Source: Xanthomonas sp. AM6 | GTDB taxonomy: Bacteria; Pseudomonadota; Gammaproteobacteria; Xanthomonadales; Xanthomonadaceae | DNA length: 64,000 nucleotides | Direction: 5' to 3' | Assembly: GCF_025665335.1 (NCBI RefSeq) | Contig: NZ_CP106869.1 | Span: forward strand, 4,552,501-4,616,500 | In this document: positions 36,846-62,498 of the stretch, piece by piece | Layout: every line of letters begins with the position of its first letter | How positions within the stretch are numbered: position 1 is the stretch's first letter | The notes under the pieces: generated by a model | The model's input: the letters and a program-made list of their open reading frames with translations, nothing else | Database searches by the model: none | What the model was told of the DNA's origin: nothing | Program-made: the position numbers and the translations under genes

Positions 36846-36888
36846 GGGTGATCCTTCGAATGAGTGGGTGGGCGCGTGCGGCGAACGC

Positions 36889-39199: not shown

Positions 39200-39275
39200 T
39201 GGTGCCGACACCCGGATTCGAACTGGGGACCTACCGCTTACAAGGCGGTTGCTCTACCAACTGAGCTATGCCGGC
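39200..39275 (-). tRNA. tRNA-Thr (anticodon TGT)
   Basis: The minus strand folds as a full cloverleaf of 76 nt: acceptor GCCGGCA pairing with TGTCGGC, D arm GCTCAGTTGGTAGAGC, anticodon stem ACCGC/GCGGT with loop CTTGTAA (anticodon TGT), and T arm with GTTCGAATC. An encoded CCA follows the discriminator A. Confidence 0.96.
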
Positions 39276-39316
39276 AAAGGCTGCGCGACGCGCGTGCCGC
39301 GTGGCGGCGCGCCATT

Positions 39317-43457: not shown

Positions 43458-43541
43458 GAGCGAAAGCGGCAGACCCGACGGGATCGAACAGCACCCAGGG
43501 CGATGCACCAAGCCACGCCGGCTCATGGCGAACACCACGCC

Positions 43542-44741: not shown

Positions 44742-44804
44742 GGCGGGGATCTCCGTGATCGCCGGACGCGGCGACGAGCGCTGCGCCCGGCGCTATGGGC
44801 CGGA

Positions 44805-46388: not shown

Positions 46389-46530
46389 GCGGCGCTCCTT
46401 GATCGGGAAACCGTGCGTGACGATCCGCGCAGTATCCGCGCACAGCCAGCGCGCGCGTTAAGCGGATGTCGGAAAGCGCTGCGACATTCGCACGGGATTC
46501 ACCCTCGCGACAACGCAGGTCGAACGCCGG

Positions 46531-47946: not shown

Positions 47947-47986
47947 GCCGTCGCGTCCTTCGCTTGCTCGTCGCAGGCGCGTGGGA

Positions 47987-48670
47987 TCAGCCTTCGGTGC
48001 GCGGGATGGCGAAGCGGTAACCGCGGCCGCGCACGGTCTCGATCGGCTTCAGCTCGCCATCGGGGTCCAGCTTCTTGCGCAGGCGGCCGATGAACACTTC
48101 CAGCACGTTGGAGTCGCGGTCGAAGTCCTGCTGGTAGATGTGCTCGGTGAGGTCGGCCTTGGAGACCAGTTCGCCGGCATGCATCATCAGGTATTCGAGC
48201 ACCTTGTATTCGTAGCTGGTCAGATCGACGTTGCTGCCGCTGACGCTGACCGTCTGCGCCGCCAGGTCCAGCGCCACCGGGCCGCATTCCAGGGTCGGCT
48301 TGCTCCAGCCCGCGGCCCGGCGCAGCAGCGCGTTGACCCGCGCCAGCAGCTCTTCGACGTGGAACGGCTTGACCAGGTAGTCGTCGGCGCCCTGCTTCAG
48401 GCCCTCGACCTTGTCCTGCCAGCTCGAACGCGCGGTGAGGATCAGCACCGGGAACTTCTTGCCTTCGTCGCGCAGCGCCTTGATCAGCTCCATGCCCGAC
48501 ATCTTCGGCAGGCCGAGGTCGATGATGCCCACGTCGAAGGGCACTTCGCGGCCCATGTACAGGCCTTCCTCGCCATCCTGCGCCGCGTCCACCGCAAACC
48601 CCTCGCGCTTGAGGCGAGCCGCCAGGGTCTCGCGCAGGGGGGCTTCGTCTTCGACCAGAAGGATACGCAT
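47987..48670 (-). CDS. phoP: Response regulator PhoP
   Basis: OmpR-family regulator of 227 residues. The receiver has the acidic VEDE pair, phosphoacceptor Asp51 in VGIIDLGLPKMSG, LTARSSWQDKVEGLKQGADDY and Lys in YLVKPFHVEE. The winged-helix domain includes LTSYEYKVLEYLMMHAGELVSKADL and VFIGRLRKKLDPD...VRGRGYRF. It is followed directly by its kinase gene and preceded by a PepSY-like gene, forming a three-gene unit. CTAGGGAGAG precedes the ATG. Confidence 0.95.
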   Translation of the reverse strand: MRILLVEDEAPLRETLAARLKREGFAVDAAQDGEEGLYMGREVPFDVGIIDLGLPKMSGMELIKALRDEGKKFPVLILTARSSWQDKVEGLKQGADDYLVKPFHVEELLARVNALLRRAAGWSKPTLECGPVALDLAAQTVSVSGSNVDLTSYEYKVLEYLMMHAGELVSKADLTEHIYQQDFDRDSNVLEVFIGRLRKKLDPDGELKPIETVRGRGYRFAIPRTEG

Positions 48671-48751
48671 GAACTCTCCCTAGTTACTTCTTTACGGATG
48701 GCCGACGGCCGGGGCATTGGGGTGATGCAAGCTGAACCAAACTATCCGGGT

Positions 48752-49135
48752 TCAGGGGTTATCGTCGCGTGGTGGTTGCTGCGGGTCGATCGGGCGCGGC
48801 ACGCGTGGCGGCACGGCGCCCGGTTGCGGGTCGTCCATGTAGCGCACGCGCCCGCGCCCGTCCATGTACTTGACCCGGTTGATGTCGCGCCCGTCGAACG
48901 GCACGCGCTCGGCACCCAGGATCTGCCCACCGGTGGAGCGCTGCACCCGGCGCACCGCATCGGACAGCGAGCTGCCATGGTAGTCGCGCGCCCGGGCCGC
49001 CTCGCGGGCCTGGGCGATGCCAGGACCCGGCGGACCCGGCTGCTGCGCCCAGCCATCGCCGACGGCCGTGAGCGCGAGTGCGATCACGGCGGCGGTGCGG
49101 CAGCGGCGGAGAGTGGCAGAGGTCACGACTGGCAT
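48752..49135 (-). CDS. Secreted PepSY-like protein upstream of phoPQ
   Basis: Protein of 127 residues with a signal peptide (about 1-31, ending VGDGWAQ). A small domain follows that resembles PepSY: LSDAVRRVQRSTGGQILGAERVPFDGRDINRVKYMDGRGRVRYMDD. The tail is proline-rich. PepSY domains often modulate peptidases or kinases in the periplasm. It lies 81 bp upstream of phoP on the same strand, so a role in PhoPQ signalling is a reasonable guess, not a demonstrated one. The start MPVVTSATL at 49135 fits the signal peptide. Confidence 0.75.
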   Translation of the reverse strand: MPVVTSATLRRCRTAAVIALALTAVGDGWAQQPGPPGPGIAQAREAARARDYHGSSLSDAVRRVQRSTGGQILGAERVPFDGRDINRVKYMDGRGRVRYMDDPQPGAVPPRVPRPIDPQQPPRDDNP

Positions 49136-49491
49136 CCTAACGGACTGATCGGAAACGTTCAAAAGTTGTGAAACGTGCCGCATGGCAACGGCGGCACGAT
49201 TCCGCAAAATCGAGCCAAATTCTTGATTTTTCGGGGTGAATCCGATCTGAACTTTTCCGGCCCGGGCCGTCATCGTTCAGTCAAATGAACTCCCCTTTCC
49301 GATGCGGCAGGCCGCCATCGACAGTGTCCGGCCCCGCCCCCGCGGGGCTCTGCCGGTCCCCTTGCGGCGGCAGTGGCCGCCATTACAACCTGAACAAAGT
49401 AACTGAACGCCTATCCCAAAAGCAGCATTGGCGTCTTGCCGCTGAAGGGAATGGAGGGCGGACGCCCAGGACAACGCGACCGCGAAAGCCG
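49136..49491. other. 356-bp intergenic stretch holding the phoPQ-unit promoter
   Basis: It includes AT-rich DNA around 49140-49260 upstream of the PepSY-like gene, where a promoter is expected. No clear PhoP direct repeat could be identified. The part from 49280 to 49490 holds no gene. Confidence 0.4.
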
Positions 49492-50511
49492 CTACGCCGC
49501 GGCGCGTGCCCCGCCCTCGGTCAGTTGCAACGCCTGTTCCAGCAGCGTCCAGTCCGCGCCCGGCCGATGCGCGCCTTCGCTGAGCACCTGGCGGAACGCG
49601 CGGCCGCCCGGCTGGCCGTGGAACAGGCCGAGCAGATGGCGCGCGATGTGCTTGAGCGCCACGCCGTCGGCCAGGCGCGCCTCGACGTAGGGCCGCAGCG
49701 CACGCAGCAGCTCGGCGCGCGGCCGCGGCGCGGCGCCGGTCAGGGCCGCGTCCAGCCGGTGCAGCACGTAGGGATCGTGGTAGGCCGCACGCCCCAGCAT
49801 CACTCCGTCCACCGCCTCCAGCTGCGCCTGCGCCGTGGCCACCTCGGCCAGCCCGCCATTGAGCACGATCTGCAACTGCGGGCGCTCGCGCTTGAGCCGA
49901 TGCGCCCACTCGTAGCGCAACGGCGGCACCTCGCGGTTCTCCTTCGGCGACAGGCCCTGCAGCCACGCGTTGCGCGCGTGCACCACGAACAACCCGCAAC
50001 CGGCGGCGGCGACCTCGTCGACGAAGGCGAGGAAGACCGCGTAGTCGTCGTCCTGGTCCACGCCCAGCCGGCACTTCACCGTGACCGGGATGTCCACCGC
50101 CTGCACCATCGCCGCCACGCACTCGGCGACCAGCGCCGGCTCGCGCATCAGGCAGGCGCCGAAGCGCCCGGCCTGGACCCGGTCGGACGGGCAGCCGCAA
50201 TTGAGATTGACCTCGTCGTAGCCCCACTCCTGGCCGATCCGCGCCGCCTGCGCCAGCAACGCCGGATCGCTGCCGCCCAGTTGCAGGGCCAACGGATGCT
50301 CGACCGCATCGAAGCCCAGCAAGCGCGCGCGATCGCCCAGCACCACCGCATTGGCGTGCACCATCTCGGTATACAGCCGCGCCGACGGCGCCAGCAGCCG
50401 GTGGAACACGCGGCAGTGGCGATCGGTCCAGTCCATCATCGGCGCGACGGACAGGCGCAGCGAGGCGGCGTAGCGCGCGGACAGGTCGGAGGTCGGGAGC
50501 GGAAGCGTCAT
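49492..50511 (-). CDS. dusA: tRNA-dihydrouridine synthase A
   Basis: Flavoenzyme of 339 residues that reduces U20/U20a in tRNA. The family motif SVAPMMDWTDRHCRVFHRLL is at the N-terminus, the catalytic Cys in EVNLNCGCPSDRVQAG near residue 103, then KCRLGVD, FVVHARNAWLQGLSPKENREVPPLRYE, and the FMN-binding VLNGGL. The gene is intact. Its 5' end and upstream DNA are duplicated at 59514-59692, which shows that an element integrated here and that the first residues and promoter are now supplied by the element's own DNA. Confidence 0.95.
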   Translation of the reverse strand: MTLPLPTSDLSARYAASLRLSVAPMMDWTDRHCRVFHRLLAPSARLYTEMVHANAVVLGDRARLLGFDAVEHPLALQLGGSDPALLAQAARIGQEWGYDEVNLNCGCPSDRVQAGRFGACLMREPALVAECVAAMVQAVDIPVTVKCRLGVDQDDDYAVFLAFVDEVAAAGCGLFVVHARNAWLQGLSPKENREVPPLRYEWAHRLKRERPQLQIVLNGGLAEVATAQAQLEAVDGVMLGRAAYHDPYVLHRLDAALTGAAPRPRAELLRALRPYVEARLADGVALKHIARHLLGLFHGQPGGRAFRQVLSEGAHRPGADWTLLEQALQLTEGGARAAA

Positions 50512-50605
50512 CGGGTGCGGCGGTGCTGCGCTGTCGCCCCGGGGGCTTTAGCGGCAGATCATTGCTTTTGGGATCAACAGCTTACACGTTTACCGCGAAC
50601 GCTGC
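50423..50605. repeat. Left direct repeat: dusA 5' end and upstream DNA (attL side)
   Basis: These 183 bp align with 59514-59692. The first 38 bp are identical; the rest is about 85-90 % identical, with a 6-bp deletion in the other copy. The repeat covers the first about 30 codons of dusA and roughly 95 bp upstream, including the GGGATCAACAGCTTACACGT promoter-proximal block. Confidence 0.85.
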
Positions 50606-50776
50606 CGGGCGCAGCGCTGACCCAGAGAGGGAAGAGCCGAAGAGACTCGCCGCCATCCGGACCGGCAAAAGCGGACTCGGCCTCTACCGACGCACATGTC
50701 CGCTTCCGCCGGAAGCAGACCTTCAGGAACCCACCATCAAGCCACGCCGCGAAACGGCGCCGGTCCGGATGCATCG

Positions 50777-51127
50777 TCAGGGCGCATCCGGTCCCCAGTC
50801 CGTGACTGCCAGGAATCTCTCGGACTCCGGCGTCTTCTCGAAGGCACTGCCCTCCGGCGCCTCGAGAAACGGGACGATGCTTGGATCGTAGTTCGCAATG
50901 GTGTTGACGTCGTAGATGCCATGGTTGTCCGGGTCGTCCATGTAAGCGCCGTCCTCGAACCCGGACATGAACCGCCAACCGCTGTCCATCTCGTTGTTCG
51001 GGGCTTCCCGATACATGAATCGGACGGGATAGCCGTCGACCGTGATCTTGTCCGTGGCGATGCAGGCGCCGTAACCCTCTGCCACCGGTTTGATCTGGCC
51101 GGCGGAGCGCTGGAACTGTTTGGTCAT
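50777..51127 (-). CDS. DUF2185 / Imm33-type protein
   Basis: Protein of 116 residues. The C-terminal two thirds match the DUF2185 pattern: GACIATDKITVDGYPVRFMYREAPNNEMDSGWRFMSG, then YMDDPDNHGIYDVNTIANYDPSIVPFLEAP and GSAFEKT. Members of this family act as immunity proteins (Imm33) in polymorphic toxin systems or as stand-alone proteins of unknown role. No toxin gene is adjacent. It lies inside the dusA island. AGGCACGAC upstream of the ATG is a weak ribosome site. Confidence 0.85.
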   Translation of the reverse strand: MTKQFQRSAGQIKPVAEGYGACIATDKITVDGYPVRFMYREAPNNEMDSGWRFMSGFEDGAYMDDPDNHGIYDVNTIANYDPSIVPFLEAPEGSAFEKTPESERFLAVTDWGPDAP

Positions 51128-51237
51128 GCGTCGTGCCTGCCTGATCGCGCGATCGTCGCATCCGATTATACGAGTTGCCGACGGCGCGCCCTGTGCGCGC
51201 ACTATCTTTCGACACCACGCGCTCTCAGCATTCGACC

Positions 51238-52632
51238 TCAAGCCACGCTTTCCTGCAGCGACCTGCGCAAGACTTCGTAGACGCGCCGGTCGGAACATTG
51301 GGCGACGTTGAAACGGAAGAACGCATCGCCCGCTTCGCTCAGGCTGAAGGTGCTTCCCGGCGCGAGAACCACACCGTGTTTCAATGCCACGCGCGCCACC
51401 TTGACCGCGCTGGCGCCGTCCGGGAGCCGGCTCCACAGATACATGCCTTCGCCAGGCTCGGCCCATGGCGTGATGCCGACACTCTCCAGCTTGCGCCGGA
51501 CGTTCGGCATGGCGCGCGCCAGCCGTTGCCGCAGTGTCTCCACATGGCGTCGATAGCCGCCATCGCGCAACATCGAGTAGACCAGTTCCGATGCCAGGCG
51601 GCCGCTGCCGAACGCGGTGGCGATCTTCAGATCGGTCAGTGCGTCGATCCAGTCCGCACGCGCGGCGATATAGCCGCAGCGAACCGACGCCGACAGGGTC
51701 TTGGAAAAACTCCCGACCTGGATGACGTGCTGCAGGCCATCGAATGCCGCGAGCCTGGCCGAGGGCACCGACTGGAACTCGGCGAAGATGTCGTCCTCGA
51801 TGATTGTCACACCGTGCTGCTCCGCCGCCTTCAGCACACGGTGCGCGGTCGCCGGCGACAGCGTGGCGCCCGTGGGATTGTGCAGCGCCGAATTGGTCAG
51901 GTACAGGCGCGGCTTGTGTCGGAGCACGGCGCCTTCGAACGCGTCCACGTCCGGCCCGTTCGGGGTGTAGGGCACGCCCACCACAGTTGCCCGGTGCGCG
52001 CGCAGCAGCGCATGGAAATTGAAATAGCAGGGATCGTCCACCAGCACCGTGTCGCCAGGCTCAAGCAGGAAGCGGCAAGCCAGGTCGACAGCATGCGTGC
52101 CCGATTCCACCAGCAGGATCTGGTCGGCGTCGGCCTCGACGGCGCGGTCGGCCAGCCTGCGGGCCAGCAGTTGCCGTAGCCCAGGATGACCGAGCGGCGT
52201 GGCGTAATCGGCTAGCTCGGCATCGTCCAGCTTCGCCGATGCCCTGAGCGCGCGCCGGATGCTCTCCTGCGGCATCCAGTCCGACGGCAGCCAACCGCAG
52301 CTCGGTTTCAACAACCCCTCCTGGCCGCTCAACGACTGGTGTGCGACCCATAGCGGATCGACGTCGCGATCCGCCCTCGGATTGCCGGGAGCCAGAGAAA
52401 GCACTGCCTTGCGCTGGGGAACGTAGAACCCCGAGCCGGGCCGGGCGAGGATGGCGCCCTCGGCTGCGAGCCGGTCATACGCCTCGACGACTGTCGACTT
52501 GGACACCCCCAGGCTCTCGGCAAGCCCTCTGATCGAAGGAAGCCGGGCACCCGGCGGAAGTTGGCACCGATCGATGCGCTTGCGGATGTCGCCGACCACG
52601 CGCGCAGTCAGCGTTTCTGGCTTGGCGTTCAT
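51238..52632 (-). CDS. MocR-type transcriptional regulator (GntR HTH + aminotransferase fold)
   Basis: Regulator of 464 residues. The N-terminal GntR winged helix (TARVVGDIRKRIDRCQLPPGARLPSIRGLAESLGVSKSTVVEAYDRLAAEG) is joined to a fold-type I aminotransferase domain. PLP-binding residues are visible in SGTHAVDLACRFLL, DDPCYFNF, HNPTGATLSP, and the Schiff-base lysine in VGSFSKTLSASVRCGYI. MocR proteins use PLP or amino-acid adducts as effectors. It diverges from an EamA exporter gene, and a palindrome in the 122-bp spacer is a likely operator. The pair is a typical effector-export module. Confidence 0.92.
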   Translation of the reverse strand: MNAKPETLTARVVGDIRKRIDRCQLPPGARLPSIRGLAESLGVSKSTVVEAYDRLAAEGAILARPGSGFYVPQRKAVLSLAPGNPRADRDVDPLWVAHQSLSGQEGLLKPSCGWLPSDWMPQESIRRALRASAKLDDAELADYATPLGHPGLRQLLARRLADRAVEADADQILLVESGTHAVDLACRFLLEPGDTVLVDDPCYFNFHALLRAHRATVVGVPYTPNGPDVDAFEGAVLRHKPRLYLTNSALHNPTGATLSPATAHRVLKAAEQHGVTIIEDDIFAEFQSVPSARLAAFDGLQHVIQVGSFSKTLSASVRCGYIAARADWIDALTDLKIATAFGSGRLASELVYSMLRDGGYRRHVETLRQRLARAMPNVRRKLESVGITPWAEPGEGMYLWSRLPDGASAVKVARVALKHGVVLAPGSTFSLSEAGDAFFRFNVAQCSDRRVYEVLRRSLQESVA

Positions 52633-52664
52633 ACGCGATCCGATGTGTACCGACCAATGGACCA

Positions 52665-52685
52665 GTACAGTTCTATTGACTGTAC
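52665..52685. promoter_or_regulatory. Candidate MocR operator in divergent intergenic region
   Basis: GTACAG (52665-52670), 9 bp, then CTGTAC (52680-52685) form a perfect inverted repeat. TGGACCAGTACAG and TTGACTGTAC also resemble a direct/inverted set of half sites, and the TTGAC at 52676 could be a -35 box. It is midway between the regulator and exporter starts. Confidence 0.5.
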
Positions 52686-52754
52686 CCATGATTGTCCCTG
52701 CCCACCGCCTTGGCAACTGCCGAGCATGAGCGCATCCAAGACCCGGGAACGGCG

Positions 52755-53675
52755 GTGCAGAAAAAGGCGGACGGTTGGTTGAGCGGGATCGTGGGGGTGG
52801 CGATCTTCAGCGGCTCGCTGCCCGCCACGCGCGTAGCGGTCGCGGATCTGTCCCCGGTGTTCCTCACCTCGGCGCGCGCAGTCATCGCTGCGGCCATTGC
52901 CGTCGCGATCTTGTTCGCATTCAGGGCGAAATGTCCGGCGCCACGGCAGCTGCCGCCGCTGGCGGCGATCGCCGTTGGCGTGGTGATCGGCTTCCCCCTG
53001 CTCAGCGGCTATGCCCTTCAACACATCTCCGCGGCGCGCTCGCTGGTGTTCGTCGGTTTGCTGCCGCTGTCGACCGCAGTGTTCGGCGTACTGCGCGGCG
53101 GAGAACGGCCGCGTCCCGCCTTCTGGCTTTTTGCCGTCCTCGGCAGCGCCTGCGTGATCGGCTTCGCTTCACTGCGGCAGCAGGCCGCCACCCTCCATGG
53201 CGATCTGTTGATGCTCGCCGCGATCGTCGCCTGCGGGTACGGCTATGCCGAGGGAGGACGTCTGTCACGGGAGCTGGGCGGCTGGCAGGTCATCAGCTGG
53301 GCGTTGGTGATCGCGCTGCCGGTCACGCTGCTGCTCACGCTGACGCATCTGCCGATGCATCCGGCGCAGGTTCGGACGAGTTCGTGGATCGCCCTGGCGT
53401 ACGTTGCGATCTTCAGCATGCTCATCGGATTCTTCTTCTGGTATCGTGGCCTGGCGCTGGGAGGCATCGCGGCCGTAGGCCAACTGCAATTGTTGCAGCC
53501 TTTCATGGGGCTAGCCTTGGCGACACTGCTGCTGCACGAACCCGTCGGCTGGCAGTTACTCGCGGCAGCCCTCTCCGTCGCCGCGTGCGTCGCCGCTGCC
53601 AAGCGTTTCTCAAGCAATCGTGCCGTTGCTTTCACGCGCGGCCGAAGCGTGCCCGGTATGCCAGGACAGCAGTAA
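52755..53675 (+). CDS. EamA/DMT-family exporter
   Basis: Ten-helix transporter of about 306 residues. The first EamA repeat begins WLSGIVGVAIFSGSLPATRVAV and includes FPLLSGYALQHISAARSLVFVGLLPLSTAVFGVL. The second has VAIFSMLIGFFFWYRGLALGGIAAVGQLQLLQPFMGLALATLLLHEPVGW. Relatives export amino acids or similar metabolites. GTG at 52755 is proposed as the start because GGGAAC precedes it; a TTG at 52692 is an alternative. Control by the divergent MocR regulator is likely. The C-terminal tail beyond about residue 285 is polar. Confidence 0.88.
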   Translation: MQKKADGWLSGIVGVAIFSGSLPATRVAVADLSPVFLTSARAVIAAAIAVAILFAFRAKCPAPRQLPPLAAIAVGVVIGFPLLSGYALQHISAARSLVFVGLLPLSTAVFGVLRGGERPRPAFWLFAVLGSACVIGFASLRQQAATLHGDLLMLAAIVACGYGYAEGGRLSRELGGWQVISWALVIALPVTLLLTLTHLPMHPAQVRTSSWIALAYVAIFSMLIGFFFWYRGLALGGIAAVGQLQLLQPFMGLALATLLLHEPVGWQLLAAALSVAACVAAAKRFSSNRAVAFTRGRSVPGMPGQQ

Positions 53676-53761
53676 GGCAATGCGCTGGCGGCGGCATTCC
53701 GCTGCAGCGACGCCGCCCTTCCCTCAAACGATACCCGGACAAACACACTCGTCATCGGTCT

Positions 53762-53815
53762 GCTTGACCCGCCGCCGCATCCGGCCTATCGTGCGCTCGC
53801 CGAAGGTATCCATCG
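53762..53815. repeat. 54-bp copy of DNA from the dusA upstream region
   Basis: This block, beginning GCTTGACCCGCCGCCGCATC, is identical to 59716-59769. There it lies about 110 bp upstream of the leftover dusA 5' fragment. It marks an internal junction of the island. Confidence 0.85.
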
Positions 53816-53967
53816 GCATGCATAGGATTTCGCGCGGCCCGGTCGGACGCTATCAGCGAACGACGCAACCGATTGTCGGAGAAGCCCTACGCGATGCCTG
53901 CGGCCGGTACGCCGCCTAGCTGCTGGGAAACGGCGCGGATCTGCGCCGCTCTCCCCTGCATGCTGGC

Positions 53968-54607
53968 GTGCAGTACCGCGCTACCGGTGCAGAGCGGACC
54001 CAGGTACCGCCGCACAAGCGGCTAGAGAATGCGCCGGCAGGCCGCGGCCTGCCGATCGGCAACCTGTCATCGCAGTTCTTCGCCAACGTCTACCTGGACG
54101 CGCTGGACCAGTTCGCCAAGCGCGAGCTGCACGCCAAGCGCTACCTGCGGTATGTCGATGACTTCGTGCTGTTTCATCACGACCGCGCCCAGCTGCAGCG
54201 CTGGCAGACGCAGATCGAGCAATTCCTGAGCGATCAGCTCAGCCTTGGGCTGAAGGCCGACATCCGGCTGCGCCGGCTGACGGATGGGTTGGATTTCCTT
54301 GGCTACGTGATCTACCCCACCCACACGCTGGCGCGGCGGCGCGTCATCGGGCATGCGCGTGCGGCCATGGCGGTATGGGGGGGGTGCGCACGTCGTCGCC
54401 GGCAGCATCCGATGCACGCCGCAGGACTTACGTGACATCCGCGCGCGCCTGGCGAGCTACGAAGGCCATCTTCGGCATGCGAACAGCTTTCGCCTCCGCG
54501 CCGCGCTGCACCGTCGTTTCAAGTGGCTCCGCTCCGCTACGGCCCCGCGTCGCTTCAGCGCTCAACTGGAGGGCTGCCGCGTCCGCTTTCGCACGAGGAG
54601 CGATTGA
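53968..54607 (+). pseudogene. Reverse transcriptase gene, N-terminally truncated and frameshifted
   Basis: Frame 1 encodes RT motifs 4-7: GLPIGNLSSQFFANVYLDAL (an IGxxxSQ motif in place of QGxxxSP), the catalytic YVDD in AKRYLRYVDDFVLFHHD, and GLDFLGYVIYPTHTLARR. The fingers domain with motifs 1-3 is missing. At a run of eight G near 54373 the frame shifts, and the C-terminal helical part (RDIRARLASYEGHLRHANSFRLRAALHRRFKWL) continues in frame 2 to TGA at 54605. IGxxxSQ is characteristic of diversity-generating-retroelement and related phage or Abi RTs. No template or variable repeat pair was recognised. Confidence 0.8.
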
Positions 54608-54783
54608 TGCGTTCAGACACGACGCAGATGGATCTCGGAATCCGACTAAAGCCTACGGCCGAGGATTGGCGCCAGGCCGCCGCTACTGCCATGGTCAATC
54701 CATACGAAACGCCGGAGCGTTGCCGCTGGCGCGCCGAGTATTGCCTTGCACAGGCAAAACAACTGGATGAGCGCGGCGAATGA
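54607..54783 (+). CDS. Small protein of unknown function after the RT gene
   Basis: Protein of 58 residues, MRSDTTQMDLGIRLKPTAED followed by WRQAAATAMVNPYETPERCR and WRAEYCLAQAKQLDERGE. The ATG overlaps the RT stop codon (TGATG), and GAGGAG lies 6 bp upstream, so it is well placed for translation. No domain is recognised; charge and helix content suggest a small soluble phage-type protein. It converges with the next gene. Confidence 0.6.
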   Translation: MRSDTTQMDLGIRLKPTAEDWRQAAATAMVNPYETPERCRWRAEYCLAQAKQLDERGE

Positions 54784-54791
54784 CAAGAACC

Positions 54792-55409
54792 CTAGAAGTC
54801 CGTTTCAGCCAAATCCCCCTTGCCATCGGTAGCCCAATGCAGAGTCAGCTCGCGAGCGGATCTCAACACTTCAAGGAATGTCTCGAATGCCAGAGCGATC
54901 GACCGAAGGTCGTCAGCAATCTGCAGCGCGCTGTCTTCTTGGAAGCGCCCCTGATCGAGAAACGTGCGATTCACGTACCAACTACTCAACGCAGAAAGCA
55001 GCTTTGCGGCGCCACCTGCGCCAAAGGCGTCCAAATCGCCCGCGAAGCGAGTCAGCATCGGCAGAGGGTCGACCGGCATCTGCTTTGCGGCCCAGGCCGC
55101 CGTGGCGACTGGATCTTTCAACGCCTCTGGGTGAGAAAGCACGTCCGCTATACGACGTATCTCGCCCCCAAGGACATAGAGCTCGTGGTCGAGCACGATC
55201 GCTCGAGCCACAGCTCTGTCCTTATCCGCCTGCAGTCTTGCAGCTCGATCTTCGTCGCGCATCCGACGCGCCTCGTCCACGGCAGTGCGGCTCGTCCTCA
55301 TCGCAACAAGGACCGCCCAGAAGGTCGCTCCCGCGGCAATCGCGGCGATCACCACTGCCGCCCAGTCCGCCCAACTACCCCAATCCGCCGAGAGCGGACA
55401 CATCTCCAT
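54792..55409 (-). CDS. Membrane-anchored coiled-coil protein of unknown function (copy A)
   Basis: Protein of 205 residues. A short N-terminus with a Cys (MEMCPLSADWGSWADW) leads into one membrane helix (AAVVIAAIAAGATFWAVLVAM, about 15-38). A charged coiled-coil stretch (SRTAVDEARRMRDEDRAARLQADKDRA) and an all-helical cytoplasmic domain follow. The layout matches the two genes upstream. GGGGGAGGT directly precedes two near ATGs; 55409 has the better spacing. Function unknown; inside the dusA island. Confidence 0.65.
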   Translation of the reverse strand: MEMCPLSADWGSWADWAAVVIAAIAAGATFWAVLVAMRTSRTAVDEARRMRDEDRAARLQADKDRAVARAIVLDHELYVLGGEIRRIADVLSHPEALKDPVATAAWAAKQMPVDPLPMLTRFAGDLDAFGAGGAAKLLSALSSWYVNRTFLDQGRFQEDSALQIADDLRSIALAFETFLEVLRSARELTLHWATDGKGDLAETDF

Positions 55410-55513
55410 TGCCATACCTCCCCCTTTGTTTAGCTGATGCTGCCATGACCGGCATACACGCGAGCGAAAAACTCGCCCTCCCGCAGTGGGGCGTCAAGTG
55501 CACCGTGATTTAC

Positions 55514-56068
55514 TCAGGCCTCTTCGTCAAACAGCTGGCCGAGTTCTTCCGACGCTTTGCGCATGAGTTCCAGAACAGCATCCAGCGAACGTTTCGCTGC
55601 GGTAACTGCCTGCCCGTTTCTCGTACCGTCGCTCCTCGATCCGCATTCCATAAGCTTGCCGCGCAGAAAAGAAAGCTCAAGCAGCGCCAGTTGCAGCGTG
55701 CTTCCTGCGGGCCCAAGTTCGTGCAATTGCTTGACCGCGTCCTTAAGGCGGGCAGGAAGGGCTATTCGGAAGACCGCCGAGGCATAGCCGTACACGTCTC
55801 CGAGGGTCTTGTACCCGTCTTCGTGCAATGCCTGTATGGAAGCCGTCAATGCTGTCATGTCGTCGAGCACGTCCACTGCCAAAGACCGTGCCTTTGCTTT
55901 AGCATCCGCCACCTTCGCCAGGTTCGCCTGTCGCTGCAGTCGAAGTGGCACGAGTACCGCAACGAGGATTGCGACCACGCTGCCGATGGCCTGCCACCAC
56001 GCGGCCCACACCTCCGGTTTCAGGCACGGTGCGGCGAGAAGCCACGGACAGTAGAGAGGATCCGCCAT
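55514..56068 (-). CDS. Membrane-anchored coiled-coil protein of unknown function (copy B)
   Basis: Protein of 184 residues with the same plan as copies A and C. The N-terminus has two Cys (MADPLYCPWLLAAPCLKPEVW), one membrane helix follows (WWQAIGSVVAILVAVLVPL), then a basic coiled coil (RLQRQANLAKVADAKAKARS) and a helical domain ending SEELGQLFDEEA. Sequence identity to the neighbours is low, so they are at best distant paralogues or share only architecture. The ATG at 56068 is chosen as the start of the hydrophobic-segment module. No motif points to a function. Confidence 0.62.
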   Translation of the reverse strand: MADPLYCPWLLAAPCLKPEVWAAWWQAIGSVVAILVAVLVPLRLQRQANLAKVADAKAKARSLAVDVLDDMTALTASIQALHEDGYKTLGDVYGYASAVFRIALPARLKDAVKQLHELGPAGSTLQLALLELSFLRGKLMECGSRSDGTRNGQAVTAAKRSLDAVLELMRKASEELGQLFDEEA

Positions 56069-56245
56069 GTCGGTGTTCCGGGATTGAGGCCCGAATCGTG
56101 CAGTGGCTTGAGTCCCGAAGCAAGCATGGGAGCAGGTGCCGTCGGCCACGGAGACTATACGAGCCCCCGCCGCCAGCGCTGTGCAGCGACCGGGCGACAA
56201 GATCGACCTGGCTGCTATGAGGATCGGCGAGTGAACGCGTGGCGC

Positions 56246-56956
56246 TCAGCCGTTCCCAGCGTCACGCGCCGCCAAGTCACTGACTGCCTTCGCGGCGGCC
56301 GCGTCGTTCAGTGCCCGAACCTCCTCAGGCGTTATCGGCGTGATGCCCGGAAGGTCCGCAAAGAATGGCTCCAGCATCGTCATTGTCTCCCGATGAAGCT
56401 CGCAGACCTCTCGCGCTTGCGCAATGATCCTTGGCTGAGCCTTTCGAAAGAACTCGCCTGCTGGCATGTTGGGAAAACCATCCGATATATACGGCATGGC
56501 CTTCCAGTTCGTCATGTTGTTTACCAATGCGATAGCGAGCTGGTCGGGGAATACATCCAACGAACCCAGGAACCGTTCGTGCATCGCGAAAACGCGCGGG
56601 TTCAGTGGCTGGGCATAGACCTTTATGTACTGCTCAAGATCCACCTGCGTGCGGACTGCTTCGGTGACGTGGATCAGCGCCACCATCTCGGCAAGCCCTT
56701 CGTACACCTCCCGATGGAAGATCTTTGCAAGTCGGCGAGCCAGAGATTTCCGCTCGCCCGCCATCCTCGCGAGTTCCTCTCTCTGAGCCTGATCGGCCCG
56801 ATTTCGCTCTGTGTTCCGATGTTCGTTTTCAGATCGAATCGCATGCCATGCGAAGTAAACGGCTGCAGCGGTAGCAACTGCGGAAATCGCGTCCCAATCC
56901 AGAACGCACGTTGCACTTAGCGGGGCGCACTGCACCACCCCATCGAACCAGCCCAT
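56246..56956 (-). CDS. Membrane-anchored coiled-coil protein of unknown function (copy C)
   Basis: Protein of 236 residues. MGWFDGVVQCAPLSATCVLD (two Cys) precedes a membrane helix (WDAISAVATAAAVYFAWHAI), followed by a long charged coil (RSENEHRNTERNRADQAQREELARMAGERK) and a helical domain. The C-terminal SDLAARDAGNG is unstructured. AAGGGAGTGGCT gives a good ribosome site for 56956. It is the first of three like-arranged genes transcribed toward lower coordinates. Confidence 0.65.
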   Translation of the reverse strand: MGWFDGVVQCAPLSATCVLDWDAISAVATAAAVYFAWHAIRSENEHRNTERNRADQAQREELARMAGERKSLARRLAKIFHREVYEGLAEMVALIHVTEAVRTQVDLEQYIKVYAQPLNPRVFAMHERFLGSLDVFPDQLAIALVNNMTNWKAMPYISDGFPNMPAGEFFRKAQPRIIAQAREVCELHRETMTMLEPFFADLPGITPITPEEVRALNDAAAAKAVSDLAARDAGNG

Positions 56957-57138
56957 AGCCACTCCCTTGTCCGAGAGGTAATTCTGCCATGACCGCCATC
57001 TACACGAACGACAGCTGGCCGCCCTGCAATGGGCTGTCGAGCGCGCGCACCAGGTCGCCGCCGGAGATGATCTGGTGCGCCCAACGTCCTGCCGAACCTA
57101 GATCCGGCGCATCAATTGCCGGTGGCTGCATGACCGGA

Positions 57139-57357
57139 CTAGTTATCGATCAGAGTCGTCGCGAATGCCAAGCCAGCGTTGATGGCCGCATCGAGCGTCG
57201 GGTGGTTGCCGCAATCGGGGCTCTCGATTGGGGGCAGCTCCCCTGCTTCGATCATATGGACGAAGGCCTCCCCTCCCTCCGGTTGCCAAGCCTCGATGAA
57301 GATGTCCTGGCCGTAGTAGCTGACGACGCTAGACTTCCTGAAGATCGCTGGTGGCAT
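57139..57357 (-). CDS. Small hypothetical protein
   Basis: Protein of 72 residues: MPPAIFRKSSVVSYYGQDIF, then IEAWQPEGGEAFVHMIEAGE and LDAAINAGLAFATTLIDN. It looks like a compact alpha/beta domain, with acidic residues throughout. The ribosome site AGGGAGCG precedes the ATG by 5 bp, which favours a real gene. Unknown function; located among phage-like fragments of the island. Confidence 0.6.
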   Translation of the reverse strand: MPPAIFRKSSVVSYYGQDIFIEAWQPEGGEAFVHMIEAGELPPIESPDCGNHPTLDAAINAGLAFATTLIDN

Positions 57358-57538
57358 GGCTCGCTCCCTGTCATTGGGCCGAGTCTCTCCGGCATACGAT
57401 GCGCCGTCAATGCTGCGCGAGCAGCTGGCCCAAGCCGCCAGCGAGATCAAGCGGGCTGCGAGCCAAGAACGAACGCCTGCGTGCGCCCTGGTGGCGCCGC
57501 TTCACAATGAGCCGGCGCCGCGCGCCGAAGGATACGCA

Positions 57539-57678
57539 ATGAACACGATCACGCCCGAGGCGCTGGAGCGCGCCCTCTCCGCCGCACGCGCCGCACTCTC
57601 CCTAGGCGATCAGGCCGAGATTCCCACGCGCACTACGACGCGCTGGTCGCCGGCTGGCTTGCGCTGCAAGCAGTGTAA
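57539..57678 (+). pseudogene. Frameshifted small gene
   Basis: The frame starting MNTITPEALERALSAARAAL at 57539 looks coding, but after about 28 codons its sense is lost. A plausible ending HAHYDALVAGWLALQAV with TAA at 57676-57678 lies in another frame, so a frameshift near 57620 is likely. Immediately upstream (57410-57538) a coiled-coil stretch REQLAQAASEIKR also changes frame into LRAKNERLRAPWWRRF. This is consistent with decay of a run of small phage-type genes. Confidence 0.5.
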
Positions 57679-57788
57679 CCGGCCTCATCGGACGCCGCGC
57701 AGTTGACAGATGAACAGGGCCGACCAATGACCTATTGGGGCGGCAAGGCCACCGCACAGCCACAGCAGCCACAGGCGCCGCAACTGCG

Positions 57789-57938
57789 GTGCCGGAGAGC
57801 GACTTCACGGCCGAAGAAGTGGACGAAGTGATCGAAGCAGCGCTCAGCAAAGGCACGCGCTTGATCTCTGTCGAAATCATCGAACAGATGCGCCAGGTGC
57901 TGCTCGCCGCCGCGTCGGCGCCGGAGGCGCCGCGATGA
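57789..57938 (+). CDS. Small hypothetical protein
   Basis: Protein of 49 residues from a GTG start: MPESDFTAEEVDEVIEAALS, then KGTRLISVEIIEQMRQVLLA. It is helical and acidic at the N-terminus. Its stop codon overlaps an ATG (ATGA), and the PrtN-like gene begins 37 bp downstream on the same strand, so the three may be coupled. A frame starting with ATG at 57727 (MTYWGGKATAQPQQPQAPQ) breaks off, so the N-terminus may be truncated by a frameshift. Confidence 0.5.
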   Translation: MPESDFTAEEVDEVIEAALSKGTRLISVEIIEQMRQVLLAAASAPEAPR

Positions 57939-57974
57939 GCCTGCAGCAGCTTGAAGATGCGGAGGGCCATAGCC

Positions 57975-58196
57975 ATGGCCGCTGACGACTACTCGACGTT
58001 CTGGCTGCTGTTCGGCAAGTACGGCGCCACGATGACGATCGAGCAACTGCGCGATGCGTTCTTCCCTGGCACCGCCATGAAGACCATGGCGAACAAGCAC
58101 AGCGCGCGCTTATTGCCGGCAAGGACCGGCGACGTGTACGACACGCGGGACGTGGCTACGTGGTGGGATGCGCAGAGACGGCAGCGAGCGTCCTGA
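57975..58196 (+). CDS. PrtN-like / pyocin-activator-type small DNA-binding protein
   Basis: Protein of 73 residues: MAADDYSTFWLLFGKYGATM at the N-terminus, then TIEQLRDAFFPGTAMKTMAN (helix-turn-helix-like), and TRDVATWWDAQRRQRAS at the end. The TFWLLFGKYG...F(F)PG..M..MAN..A...LP pattern resembles PrtN, the activator of pyocin genes, and related phage excisionase-like proteins. GGAGG lies 9 bp upstream of the ATG. Its presence fits a prophage-derived island; the target genes are not visible. Confidence 0.6.
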   Translation: MAADDYSTFWLLFGKYGATMTIEQLRDAFFPGTAMKTMANKHSARLLPARTGDVYDTRDVATWWDAQRRQRAS

Positions 58197-58203
58197 CCTA
58201 CAG

Positions 58204-58237
58204 CAAAAAAAAGGACCGCCCTGCTACAGGCGGCCCT
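58204..58237 (-). terminator. Intrinsic terminator after the small minus-strand gene
   Basis: On the minus strand, stem AAGGGCCGCC/GGGCGGTCCTT with a short loop is followed by a run of eight T. It lies 15 bp beyond the stop codon at 58252 and also faces the end of the PrtN-like gene. Confidence 0.85.
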
Positions 58238-58251
58238 TAAGAAATATTAGT

Positions 58252-58446
58252 TCAGCGCTTGTACGTTGGCGCTTGTGCGACTCCAACCCAACCTACAGCG
58301 ATACCGTAAGAATCTTCGGTTACTAAACCCTGCTTGACCAGTCGGTCGAATTTCACGTTGAGCTCATTGACGCGCGCAGCAGAAGCGGGCTCAAGCCTCT
58401 TAACCGCTTGCGCGATTGCCTCATTTGTGCGGGTTGCGATATCCAT
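58252..58446 (-). CDS. Small hypothetical protein downstream of the SDH protease
   Basis: Protein of 64 residues: MDIATRTNEAIAQAVKRLEP, then ASAARVNELNVKFDRLVKQG, ending VGWVGVAQAPTYKR. The middle is helical. The gene begins 8 bp after the protease stop codon on the same strand and ends at a strong terminator, so it is the second gene of a two-gene operon. Base composition is near 50 % GC, like the protease and unlike the chromosome. Confidence 0.65.
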   Translation of the reverse strand: MDIATRTNEAIAQAVKRLEPASAARVNELNVKFDRLVKQGLVTEDSYGIAVGWVGVAQAPTYKR

Positions 58447-58454
58447 GATTGGTC

Positions 58455-59318
58455 TCAATGTCTGTGGTGAATTCTGAACGAGGCTCGCTGCTGATCCAAG
58501 TAGTCTAGCAACAAGCGCGTGTAAGCGTGTAGCGGCTTCCGAATCTCATCAATCGCACTGTAGTCCTCAATTCTCAGCTTCAGGGACCCCGTTAACGTAT
58601 CCGCGCTGATCATGCGGCCATGTGAATGCCAATGCTTGTTGTCACTAAGCTGACGGGCAATCTCTTCCGCGCGCGCGATCTTCTCGTCTTGCGTCACAAC
58701 TTCGCCGTTTGAACTGTGCTGAACCCAATCTTTGAACTTATATTTAACCAACCACTTTTTCAGCAGACTGATTGACAGTTCTTTCGCTTGCTCATAACGC
58801 TTTAAGGTAGCGAGATCCAGCCTTTGAAGCATCATGAGTTCAGCGTCCGTGATAGTCCCATCAGCAGACTTTCCGATCAATTCATCGACCTTATCAATGT
58901 AGCCAAGGGCCGGCACAAAATGCCCATCAGGGTTCTGGACTTGCGGGTCAATCGGCCCTAATGAAGAAGTGTAGTCCATGAATATTTTGTCGCCCGACAT
59001 AGAAAATATAGTCCCGGCAGACATTGCAGACATGGGAACTAGAAAATAAACTTCGGAAAAATGGTGCCGAGTAACCTCTACCATCTTTTCAACGGTTTCC
59101 ACCACACCGCCTGGCGTAGTCAGCGCAATAATTATCCTATCGCTATCAGAGTATTCGCCCTTAGCAGCCGCAACCTTCTCCACAGCGTCTATATACGCTT
59201 GAAGAACCGACGGATGAATCTGCCCCACATAGGACATCACCGGGCTACCAAAGTAATTCTCGACTTCTCGACACTGAAAATTTAGCGCATAACCAATGTA
59301 GTTAGATAGCTCTTCCAT
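58455..59318 (-). CDS. SDH-type serine protease (ClpP fold)
   Basis: Protein of 287 residues related to the serine dehydrogenase proteinase family (ClpP/crotonase fold). Landmarks are DRIIIALTTPGGVVETVEKMVEV (oxyanion GG), the nucleophile region FLVPMSAMSAGTIFSMSGDKIFMDYTSSLGPIDPQV, and a helical C-terminal half. Ser in SAGT is the likely nucleophile. Codon use and GC (under 50 %) are unlike the chromosome, so it was acquired recently. GGGGGAGGC directly precedes the ATG. Similar genes are often found in mobile islands; their biological role is unknown. Confidence 0.82.
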   Translation of the reverse strand: MEELSNYIGYALNFQCREVENYFGSPVMSYVGQIHPSVLQAYIDAVEKVAAAKGEYSDSDRIIIALTTPGGVVETVEKMVEVTRHHFSEVYFLVPMSAMSAGTIFSMSGDKIFMDYTSSLGPIDPQVQNPDGHFVPALGYIDKVDELIGKSADGTITDAELMMLQRLDLATLKRYEQAKELSISLLKKWLVKYKFKDWVQHSSNGEVVTQDEKIARAEEIARQLSDNKHWHSHGRMISADTLTGSLKLRIEDYSAIDEIRKPLHAYTRLLLDYLDQQRASFRIHHRH

Positions 59319-59513
59319 GCCTCCCCCTAATCCTTGCTAATCTCACTGACCCATGAGCCGCTAGCCCAGCTGCGGCGCGAGCTTATCAGCGTTTTGCAGC
59401 TGAGTCCTATACAGAATAGCTAAGCAAATGCCGTGCCACACGAGGTCAGCAGTGCCATGGCGAATGTACCCATAGTGCACCAACGTGTCCGGAAGCCCTG
59501 ACCTGTCTATTGG

Positions 59514-59692
59514 TCGGTCCAGTCCATCATCGGCGCGACGGACAGGCGCAGGGACGCGGCGTAGCGGGCTGGCAGGTCGGAAGTCGGAAGCGTCATCGGG
59601 CGCGGTGGTGCTGCGCTGTCGCCTGCTGGCGGAAGCGGCAGATCATTGGCTTTGGGATCAATAGCTTACACGTTCGCCATGAACGCTGCCGA
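59514..59692. repeat. Right direct repeat: duplicated dusA 5' end and upstream DNA (attR side)
   Basis: Counterpart of 50423-50605. On the minus strand, positions 59596 down to 59514 still read MTLPTSDLPARYAASLRL and then SVAPMMDWTD before running into island DNA. This is the displaced original start of dusA, now a pseudogene fragment. Confidence 0.85.
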
Positions 59693-59774
59693 TGCCTGCC
59701 CGCAATGCACTTGGCGCTTGACCCGCCGCCGCATCCGGCCTATCGTGCGCTCGCCGAAGGTATCCATCGCTTCA

Positions 59775-59978
59775 TTCGGATGAAGGGATGGATTTAAACG
59801 GGAATCCGGTGACGGCCGGCGCCGCAAGCGCCTGCCCATTCCGGAGCTGCCCCGCAGCGGTGAATGGAAACGACCTCCGTCAATGGCACTGGGCCGGCGC
59901 ATGCCGGCCTGGGAAGCGGCGGACAGTAGGCGCGCAGCCGGCACGGTGCGCTCGTCCATCAGCCCGAATACCGGCCCC
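59775..59978 (+). promoter_or_regulatory. Cobalamin riboswitch in the metE leader
   Basis: The leader contains the conserved blocks of the B12 aptamer in order: GGGAATCCGGTGACGG, CCGGAGCTGCCCCGCAGCGG with TGA (59839 region), GGCACTGGG near 59885, CTGGGAAGCGGCGGACAGTAGG near 59920, and AGCCCGAATACCGGCC at 59961-59976. B12 binding would switch off metE, the B12-independent methionine synthase, when cobalamin allows MetH to work. A hairpin pair follows at 59983-60032. Confidence 0.85.
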
Positions 59979-59982
59979 GGCC

Positions 59983-60032
59983 GGAGGACCTGTGCGTCCT
60001 CCGATTCGACCTGGCGCCTCCGCGGGGAGGCG
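59983..60032 (+). promoter_or_regulatory. Two hairpins following the riboswitch aptamer
   Basis: GGAGGAC (59983-59989) pairs with GTCCTCC (59996-60002), and CGCCTCC (60015-60021) pairs with GGAGGCG (60026-60032). They sit between the aptamer and metE and lack a T-run, so they may be part of a Rho-dependent or structural expression platform. Confidence 0.5.
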
Positions 60033-60206
60033 GCCGGAAGTCGTGTCGCGGCCCTGCGCCGCGCCGCGCTCTTCCGCCTGCCCGCGTGGCGCCGGTTCGC
60101 CCGCGGGGGCGAAGGTCGCTGGCGTGGCGGGCGTCCCGTGCGAACGGGCGGACGGCGCGCGGTTCCTTCGTTCCTCAATGCCCATGAACGCAATGAGGAA
60201 ACGCAA

Positions 60207-62498
60207 ATGACGATCGTGACCAACCTGGGCTTCCCGCGCATCGGCGCGCGGCGCGAGCTCAAGCGTGCGCTGGAAAGCTACTGGCGCCGCGAAACCGACG
60301 GCGCAAGCCTGCAGGACACGGCGCGGCAGCTGCGCCAGCGGCACTGGCGGCTGCAGGTCGAGGCCGGGGTGGACCTGCCGCCCAGCAACGACTTCAGCCT
60401 GTACGACGCGATGCTCGACACCGCGTTCCTGTTCGACGCGATCCCGCAGCGCTACCGCGCGCTGGCCGATGCCGATCCGCTGGCCGGCTACTTCGCGATG
60501 GCGCGCGGCACGCAGGAGGACGGGCTGGACCTGCACGCGCTGGAAATGACCAAGTGGTTCGACACCAACTATCACTATCTGGTGCCGGAACTGGCGCGGC
60601 GCCAGCACTTCCGCCTGCGCGGCGACAAGCCGCTGGCCGAGTTCCTGGAAGCCCAGGCGCTGGGCATCGCCACGCGGCCGGTGCTGATCGGGCCGGTGAC
60701 CTTCCTGCTGCTGTCCAAGACCGTGGACGGCAGCGACCGCTGGGCGCTGCTGGACGGCCTGTTGCCGGTCTACGCCGAGCTGCTGCAACAGCTCCACGCG
60801 GCCGGCGCGGAATGGGTGCAGATCGACGAGCCGGCACTGGTGCTGGACCTGGACGTCGCCGCGCGCGAGGCCTACGGCCGCGCCTATGCGTTCCTGGCCC
60901 AGGCGCCGCGGCCGAAGCTGTTGCTGACCACGTATTTCGGCGAGCTCGGCGACAACCTGGAACTGGCCACGGCGCTGCCGGTGGACGGCCTGCACGTGGA
61001 CCTGGTGCGCGGCGTGGCGCAGTTGGACGCGGTGCTGCAGGCGCTGCCGGCCGACCGGGTGCTGTCGGCCGGGCTGGTCAACGGCCGCAACGTGTGGCGC
61101 ACGCCGCTGGACAACGCGCTGACCCTGGCGCGCTACGCGGCCGGGCACGTCGGCCGCGAACGCCTGTGGCTGGCACCCTCGTGCTCGCTGCTGCACGTGC
61201 CGGTGGACCTGGAGCAGGAAAAGGCGCTGGACCGCGAGCTGTACGCATGGCTGGCCTTCGCCAGGCAGAAGCTGCAGGAGCTGCGCACGCTGGCCGACGC
61301 GCTGCACGGGCAGCCGCATGCGCAAGCCGAACTGACCGCGGCGCGCGAGGCGCTGGAGACGCGGCGCGCGTCGGCGCGCGTGCATCGTCCCGAGGTCGCG
61401 CGCCGGGTGGCGGCGCTGAGCGAGGATGCCGGCCGCCGGCAATCGCCGTATCCGCAGCGGCGCGAGGCGCAGCAGGCGGCGCTGCGGCTGCCGGCCTACC
61501 CGACCACCACGATCGGCTCGTTCCCGCAGACCGCGCAGGTACGGCAGGCGCGCGCGCAGCACAAGGCCGGCAAGCTCGGCGACGCCGAGTACGACGCGTT
61601 CCTGGCCGCGGAGACCGAGCGCTGCGTGCGCGCGCAGGAGCAGATCGGGCTGGACGTGCTGGTGCACGGCGAGTTCGAGCGCAACGACATGGTCGAATAC
61701 TTCGGCGAGCAGCTCGACGGTTTCGCCTTCACCAGGCACGGCTGGGTGCAGAGCTACGGCTCGCGCTGCGTGAAGCCGCCGATCATCTTCGGCGACGTGC
61801 AGCGTCCGGCGCCGATGACGCTGCGCTGGACCCAGTACGCGCAGTCGCTGACCGACAAGCCGATGAAGGGCATGCTGACCGGGCCGGTGACGGTGCTGCA
61901 GTGGTCGTTCGTGCGCGACGACCAGGAGCGCGCGCAGACCTGCCGGCAGATCGCGCTGGCGCTGCGCGACGAGGTGCGCGACCTGGAGGCGGCCGGCATC
62001 GGCGTGATCCAGATCGACGAGCCGGCGATCCGCGAGGGCCTGCCGCTGCGCCGCGCGCAGTGGCAGGCGTACCTGGACTGGGCGGTGCAGTGCTTCCGCA
62101 TCGCCGCGGCCGGGGTGCGCGACGCCACCCAGATCCACACCCACATGTGCTACTCGGAGTTCAACGACATCATCGAAGCGGTGGCGGCGATGGACGCGGA
62201 CGTGATCTCGATCGAGACCTCGCGCTCGCGGATGGAACTGCTCGATGCGTTCGTGCGCTTCCGCTATCCGAACGCGATCGGCCCGGGCGTGTACGACATC
62301 CACTCGCCGCGCGTGCCCGGCACGCAGGAGATGCTGCAACTGCTGGACAAGGCGCGCGCGGTGCTGGATCCGCAGCAGCTGTGGGTCAATCCGGATTGCG
62401 GGTTGAAGACGCGCGGCTGGCCGGAAACGCGCAGCGCGCTGGAGGCGATGGTGGCCGCGGCGCGGCAGCTGCGCGCGCAGCAGGCGCAGGCGGCATAG
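60207..62498 (+). CDS. metE: Cobalamin-independent methionine synthase
   Basis: 5-methyltetrahydropteroyltriglutamate-homocysteine methyltransferase of 763 residues, the full family length. It performs the last step of methionine synthesis without B12. The N-terminal domain starts [22 protein letters not shown]. The C-terminal catalytic domain has [57 protein letters not shown] and the zinc ligands HMCYSEFND and [21 protein letters not shown] precedes the ATG. Expression is likely controlled by the cobalamin riboswitch upstream. Confidence 0.97.

Follow-up and report, generated by a model that had tools for sequence, protein, structure and literature searches.

Do two copies of one dusA sequence mark the two ends of a single integrated island, or can such a repeat arise in another way? 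The locus that raises this question lies in Xanthomonas sp. AM6, whose genome is one contig of 4.9 Mb, in a stretch of 64,000 nt (NZ_CP106869.1, positions 4,552,501 to 4,616,500; the window, whose own numbering is used below). There, 38 bp inside dusA recur about 9 kb further on, next to a leftover dusA start and before a gene that we take to be metE. The original prediction saw in this a single 9-kb island with two attachment (att) ends, attL and attR, which had integrated in the 5′ end of dusA, restored the gene and lost its integrase. The region looks instead, from its order and alignments, like two alleles of the host's dusA-metE flank with the right end of a prophage between them. The explanation that we put first, while giving it slightly less than an even chance, is a scar of the type left by specialised transduction, in which faulty excision of a prophage in a donor would have carried off its right end and adjoining host flank, and a single crossover in dusA would have inserted the product.

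The repeat in dusA

The features that define the repeat are as follows.

49492..50511, minus strand: dusA, complete open reading frame (ORF); its 5′ end, 50423-50511, is host-type by alignment with native alleles
50423..50460, no strand: left copy of the 38-bp att core (repeat scan)
59514..59551, no strand: attR core (repeat scan; order xis, core, dusA start in related prophages)
59552..59596, minus strand: displaced host dusA 5′ remnant, the putative recipient allele (comparison with other genomes, and sequence)

The two core copies are exactly identical, with a spacing of 9091. The wider similarity of about 180 bp that had been described around them was recovered by BLAST as 85% identity over about 180 bp, and a repeat scan near the core returned segments of 91% over 79 nt, 95% over 39 nt and 88% over 58 nt. 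The leftover dusA start at the right copy can be read from the sequence itself: MTLPTSDLPARYAASLRL. At the sensitivity used, the 38-bp match is not part of a dispersed repeat, as a 401-bp query over the left copy, searched against the complete genome with 40 of 242 first-look candidates scored, found both copies and a single 25-bp match that is another part of dusA. The absence of an integrase also held, with a best E-value of 0.3 for the integrase of a related element against 49001-61000 and no PF00589 match at E <= 0.001 in the window.

Empty and filled sites in the genus

We compared 20 genomes of the genus, the window's own included, and thus 19 others. An empty site had been expected in some of them, and nine (G002, G004, G007, G009, G010, G011, G016, G017, and G018) indeed run from dusA with its own 5′ end through the upstream segment and metE leader to metE without interruption. 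Six others have an insert beginning at the att core (G003, G005, G008, G012, G014, and G015), and in three (G001, G006, and G013) the only insert lies between upstream segment and metE leader, where there is no second att core; G014 has extra sequence in this second position besides its insert at the core. The space between upstream segment and metE leader is thus a second variable slot of the locus. In G006 it holds weakly HEPN-like, methylase-like, ORC-CDC6-like ATPase and PRTase-CE genes (L051 4330-11621), a possible conflict or defence cluster. In G019 we found no dusA within the 9 kb fetched upstream of metE, and the match to the dusA-side flank (window 43500-47900) lies ~840 kb from metE (G019:C1:3773699 vs 4613723-4616441), so that the chromosome is broken there at or near the locus.

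The right copy is the attachment site of a prophage

The features on either side of the right copy that bear on its nature are the following.

53941..54607, plus strand: phage reverse-transcriptase (RT) gene without its 5′ part and with a disrupted frame (phrog_1423, matched from model position 275)
56997..58196, plus strand: shortened prophage right end, collinear with the G014 element (four collinear blocks, 72-86% DNA identity)
57951..58196, plus strand: excisionase gene, xis (phrog_1300, E 1e-10; 20 IMG/VR relatives)
59634..59691, no strand: native dusA upstream segment, right allele (repeat scan and native-allele alignment)
59716..59769, plus strand: native metE promoter and riboswitch start (precedes metE in all 19 other genomes of the genus, at 80-100% identity)
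59740..59993, plus strand: cobalamin riboswitch of metE (RF00174, 81.6 bits)
60207..62498, plus strand: metE, outer boundary gene (also follows the site in each of the 19 other genomes of the genus)

The right copy is the attachment site of a dusA-integrating prophage. We assign this end to a prophage because xis precedes the core, as it does in 15 of the 20 IMG/VR records with xis relatives; a recognisable dusA start follows in 14 of those 15, and in one record, L107, the core is just a 15-bp match at the record end. With its displaced host dusA start the right copy looks like a genuine attR, and the involvement of a dusA-targeting element, as originally proposed, is upheld. Of the 20 records, 11 gave a PF00589 integrase, which always lies no more than 2.3 kb from the end opposite to xis, and the nine without one are the shorter records, at most 26.6 kb. 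Relatives with this right end thus do carry an integrase of the kind found in dusA-specific islands (DAI), the 11 being 69-76% identical to the integrase of G014. The G014 integrase matches Burkholderia phage DC1 (35%), named as a DAI phage in PMC4482086, and also an annotated shufflon-specific recombinase.

G014 carries two tandem 37-kb elements, 99.997% alike over 36.8 kb (G014:C2:77742-152319, L054-L057), in each of which the integrase lies toward dusA and the excisionase toward metE; the collinear right end spans 1.2 kb in the window vs 3.2 kb in G014. Separately, one IMG/VR record (L112 6001-7766) has two excisionase copies, a possible tandem or nested insertion. In the AM6 genome four places match PF00589; the integrase ORF in one of them (G000:C1:3420000-3439500) had no match to the dusA-type integrase.

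The RT fragment is tied to the same kind of element by L107, the sole record among the 20 with an RVT_1 match, where RT, xis and the partial core stand in direct succession. There the RT matches phrog_1423 from position 106, and in the window from position 275. The gene is of phage type by PHROGs and matches 129 phage records, including those of Bordetella and Pseudomonas phages; its DNA has relatives in seven family genomes, and five of the seven matches begin at base 53941. PADLOC models matched it to many RT classes besides that of diversity-generating retroelements, and no template/variable repeat pair stood out in a general repeat scan of 49000-61500, which was not a dedicated search; the 5′ side of the RT is missing.

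The left copy does not look like attL

Between the left copy and the RT fragment lie the following features.

50461..50607, no strand: host-type dusA 5′ end and upstream region, left allele (full-length alignment with nine empty-site alleles)
50777..51127, minus strand: Imm33-domain immunity-like gene (PF09951, E 3e-34, on the longer ORF 50777-51466, within which we chose the start codon)
51238..52632, minus strand: MocR-type (GntR-aminotransferase) regulator (PF00392 and PF00155)
52692..53675, plus strand: EamA transporter, divergent from MocR (PF00892, E 1e-27)
53762..53815, plus strand: exact copy of the metE promoter and riboswitch start (100% identical to 59716-59769)

Seven left ends of filled sites could be compared within the genus. 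In five (G005, G008, G012, G014, and G015) the sequence beyond the core is element-specific, with at most about 20 bp that are host-like. In the remaining two, the window and G003, what follows the core can be aligned with native alleles of the empty sites across the start codon and as far as the upstream segment, and in the window this reaches about 96 bp beyond the dusA start codon. Among the 11 IMG/VR left ends fetched, the five that reach dusA are element-specific beyond the core, where the integrase match starts 60-64 bp away, and nothing in them matched either the host-type 5′ end or the upstream segment. None of these 10 element-type left ends has the host upstream segment. The left copy, by these alignments, does not look like attL, and the idea that it restored dusA as the element's own end is not supported: its end is host-type where the 10 are element-specific. 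The proposed attL/attR pair thus keeps its right member and loses its left one, and the supposed single island is probably a prophage right end joined to a second flank allele.

The excisionase gene, the cobalamin riboswitch and a second exact repeat, of 54 bp, had not figured in the original prediction, and it was the last of these that changed our interpretation. The 54 bp comprise the promoter side and first 30 nt of the metE riboswitch, an element that in all nine empty sites stands a short distance beyond the dusA upstream segment. In the left half of the region the order dusA, upstream segment, Imm33/MocR/EamA, 54-bp element ends about 30 nt inside the riboswitch, an arrangement like that of a cargo-bearing intergenic region of the host. 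Imm33, MocR, EamA and the copied metE leader, the left 3.2 kb, read as another strain's host flank. The MocR gene is PdxR-like in NCBIfam, below that model's cut-off.

A proposed transduction-type scar and its rivals

Faulty joining followed by a crossover is the classical route of specialised transduction. Here the donor would have carried a dusA-integrated, RT-bearing prophage next to a flank consisting of the dusA 5′ end, the upstream segment, Imm33/MocR/EamA and the metE leader. Faulty excision would fuse the interior of the RT gene to the metE riboswitch about 30 nt from its start, giving a circle with the prophage right end (RT fragment, membrane genes, xis, a cassette with an SDH-type protease gene, attR) and the donor flank, while the integrase would be left behind. 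A single crossover between the dusA 5′ region of the circle and the recipient's dusA, an empty site, would insert it. The result would run from the dusA body through the core, the donor 5′ end, the donor flank and its 54-bp copy to RT, xis and SDH, and on through the core, the recipient 5′ end, the recipient's 54-bp element and the riboswitch to metE. One faulty joining and one crossover would give the whole order. Observed are this order, both repeats, the host-type left end, the xis-attR end and the empty sites of other genomes, whereas the donor, the circle and the crossover are inferred, as is the view that the region could no longer move unless a helper integrase were supplied. Specialised transducing phages such as lambda gal/bio likewise combine part of a prophage with adjacent host DNA through faulty excision and insert by homologous crossover; the scar described here is deduced from a chromosome rather than from a particle or circle.

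Several features point toward this explanation. The exact 54-bp copy stands where the donor flank would be expected to end, shortly before the 5′-truncated RT gene, and xis-attR is the usual far end of these prophages. Extra sequence between the upstream segment and the 54-bp element in four of the 19 other genomes (G001, G006, G013, and G014) makes a cargo-bearing allele plausible. The same topology with a different junction occurs in G003, whose left copy ends just after the upstream segment and is followed by xis, two other genes, attR and the native flank.

Other observations weigh against it. The cargo of the presumed donor flank was absent from its expected place, with no MocR/EamA or Imm33 in the dusA-metE stretches fetched from the 19 other same-genus genomes, and its relatives lie elsewhere in family genomes (67-72% identity for MocR/EamA, 76-86% for Imm33); at least 80 MocR relatives in genome_contigs, 60-66% identical, belong by title to other genera. 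No donor with an Imm33/MocR/EamA flank was found in 149 family genomes (the window's own included, two candidate stretches scored per genome) nor among the genome_contigs matches listed. G001 and G013 share the same flank gene, which may be the ancestral state. From the 54-bp copy to the next recognisable sequence, the middle of the RT gene, are 125 bp, and this stretch, 53816-53940, had no match in a DNA search of family genomes; the junction could also be a later deletion. Nor does the loss of the integrase call for a special model, as four of the five same-genus genomes with element-type left ends are also without PF00589 there, G014 alone having it. Lastly, tests of the nearest relative do not separate the transduction scar from the next explanation: G017 is nearest in 43500-47900 and in 48700-50422, other genomes marginally so between these tracts and on the metE side.

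That explanation, which we regard as somewhat less likely but a close competitor, is a replacement of the left end. A recipient lysogen with a complete dusA prophage would have taken up linear donor DNA (dusA, upstream segment, Imm33/MocR/EamA, 54-bp element), with homologous recombination in or to the left of dusA and illegitimate recombination inside the RT gene, so that attL, the integrase and most of the prophage were deleted. It takes the same number of events, gives the same order, and accounts for the host-type left end and the 54-bp copy. Different nearest relatives on the two sides would also be expected under it and are observed, G017 on the dusA side vs G003/G005 on the metE side. 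Between the two G017 tracts, at 47900-48700, G003 and G005 are marginally nearest, and on the metE side G003, G005 or G002; a dusA tree groups the window with G017 (support 0.88), the metE tree was not resolved, and a comparison of 36000-40000 gave partial matches only. However, with G017 nearest from 43500 already, the donor tract would have to extend at least 7 kb to the left of dusA, the nearest relative shifts again at the core and 5′ end (G003/G016 among eight genomes compared, though over 89 bp only), and all the identity differences are of only one or two per cent. Trees and block identities do not decide between left-end replacement and the transduction scar.

Considerably less probable, in our judgement, is the classical island of the original prediction: one integration in dusA with an attP that brought a host-like dusA 5′ end and promoter, Imm33/MocR/EamA as cargo, and an integrase that an internal deletion removed. 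In its favour, empty sites and attR do exist, remnants at this site commonly lack an integrase, and dusA islands do supply a new dusA 5′ end (PMC4482086). An island would nevertheless leave the exact metE-leader copy at 53762-53815 unexplained, and its left end would continue ~96 bp past the start codon into a host segment that none of the 10 element-type ends contains. Stepwise accretion, in which Imm33, MocR/EamA and prophage DNA were inserted independently beside dusA, without transduction, and local duplication made the repeats, would suit a mosaic region with phage gene fragments and a G+C content of 49-50% over the SDH gene, but we consider it very improbable, as both ends of a single host intergenic region would have to be duplicated, correctly ordered and oriented.

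Other genes of the prophage end

Four further genes lie between the RT fragment and the collinear right end.

54607..54783, plus strand: small ORF (tblastn matches in L099 and L101, stretches of two other genomes that also carry RT genes)
54792..55415, minus strand: membrane-protein-like gene 1, with a hydrophobic N-terminal stretch by eye (no Pfam, PHROG, PADLOC or NCBIfam match)
55514..56068, minus strand: membrane-protein-like gene 2, by eye (no Pfam, PHROG or NCBIfam match)
56246..56962, minus strand: membrane-protein-like gene 3, by eye (no Pfam, PHROG, PADLOC or NCBIfam match)

For gene 2, PD-T4-6 was a single weak PADLOC match (E 0.006) and was not relied on. Gene 3 is 38% identical over 71 aa to another place in the AM6 genome, a partial relative at G000:C1:3429303-3429511 (L104) near another integrase ORF; neither gene 3 nor xis had a match among the phage records. 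Two similar fragments at 55432-55467 and 56976-57011 lie on either side of the membrane-protein genes and seem to derive from a single phage gene start, which suggests a cassette insertion or duplication.

A variable slot between xis and attR

Between xis and the core the window carries two genes.

58252..58458, minus strand: small gene paired with the SDH protease (tblastn matches located after SDH in L125, L126, and L127)
58455..59318, minus strand: ClpP-like SDH-type serine protease (PF01972, E 6e-15; phrog_11747, E 2e-62)

We measured the gap between xis and the core in 19 elements (15 IMG/VR loci, two in G014, G003 and the window) and found 112-144 bp in 10, 424-496 bp in five and 1245-1551 bp in four. 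The four with long gaps (L123, the window, L106, and G003) have their cargo on the minus strand: SDH and a small gene in the window and L106 (SDH identity 39%), a DUF4760 membrane protein in L123, and two genes to which no kind was assigned in G003. L105 has an SDH gene in the same order, and its record ends before the core.

The protein passes the PF01972 cut-off, and the SAGT serine motif is conserved in 11 of 11 aligned rows (a twelfth, L134, was excluded as the wrong ORF); the NCBIfam SDH equivalog cut-off was not reached (67 of 250 bits). A search of solved structures gave weak matches only, to the nfeD-type membrane protease 1510-N (E 0.006). The host family has matches in 16 of 198 genomes, AM6 included, two of the others exceeding 40% identity, and phage records gave distant matches only (eight records, at most 31% identity). 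IMG/VR yielded 17 loci with SDH relatives, and nine of these were read in detail together with L106 from the xis search. In seven of the ten a same-strand ORF of 64-77 aa follows SDH, and in an eighth (L127) a tblastn match to the small protein was found; L130 has no such ORF and L138 ends too early. The gene before SDH was repressor-like by eye in five loci, and all five matched Peptidase_S24. In these (L127, L128, L130, L133, and L137) SDH lies directly downstream of a CI-like repressor, mostly with the small ORF behind it. Judged by gene neighbourhood, the pair of SDH and small partner thus occurs in other prophages, in several of them beside CI-like repressors. It may be expressed with the repressor in the lysogen and hence have a role in excluding other phages. 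PADLOC-DB 2.0.0 had no match for the pair, and no work on phages was apparent from the titles of literature on the SDH family names.

Relation to known systems and implications

The type of virus involved is known; the build of what is probably a scar is unusual. In the DAI family the integrase gene next to dusA is the only universal gene, according to Farrugia et al. (2015, PMC4482086), and in a word search of its main text Xanthomonas, tandem and excisionase do not occur. The window resembles the islands and prophages described there in its target in the dusA 5′ end, the displaced original 5′ end as outer boundary and its prophage genes, but differs in having no integrase, a left end that is host-type rather than supplied by the element, and a second copy of the host flank inside. 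Antiviral hotspots at fixed places of temperate phages (Rousset et al. 2022, PMC9122126) are similar in that a single slot, here the one from xis to attR, is occupied by a different cassette from element to element. The reported lateral transduction of defence genes (PMC12829572) is similar in that flanking host DNA can travel with a prophage end. Both concern a different phage group, however, and any defence role of the SDH pair is putative. Among the matches listed, titles and opening lines of abstracts on dusA prophages and aberrant excision mention no such scar, which does not show its absence from print.

Where an integration target contains a pair of direct repeats, it is easy to take them for attL and attR. 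The locus suggests that the same repeat pattern can stem from a prophage end with captured host flank, and it offers a simple test, namely whether the left end is element-type or host-type. A broader proposal, which we regard as speculative and doubtful, is that faulty excision of dusA prophages has repeatedly, as in the window and G003, moved their right end and the dusA-metE flank between species, with flank alleles and cargo as passengers, and that the two-gene SDH cassette carried along between xis and attR, which in other elements lies beside lysogeny repressors, is an unrecognised phage-exclusion system. If the SDH/small-protein pair does exclude phages, it would be a protease-based lysogeny module of a kind that has no match in PADLOC-DB 2.0.0.

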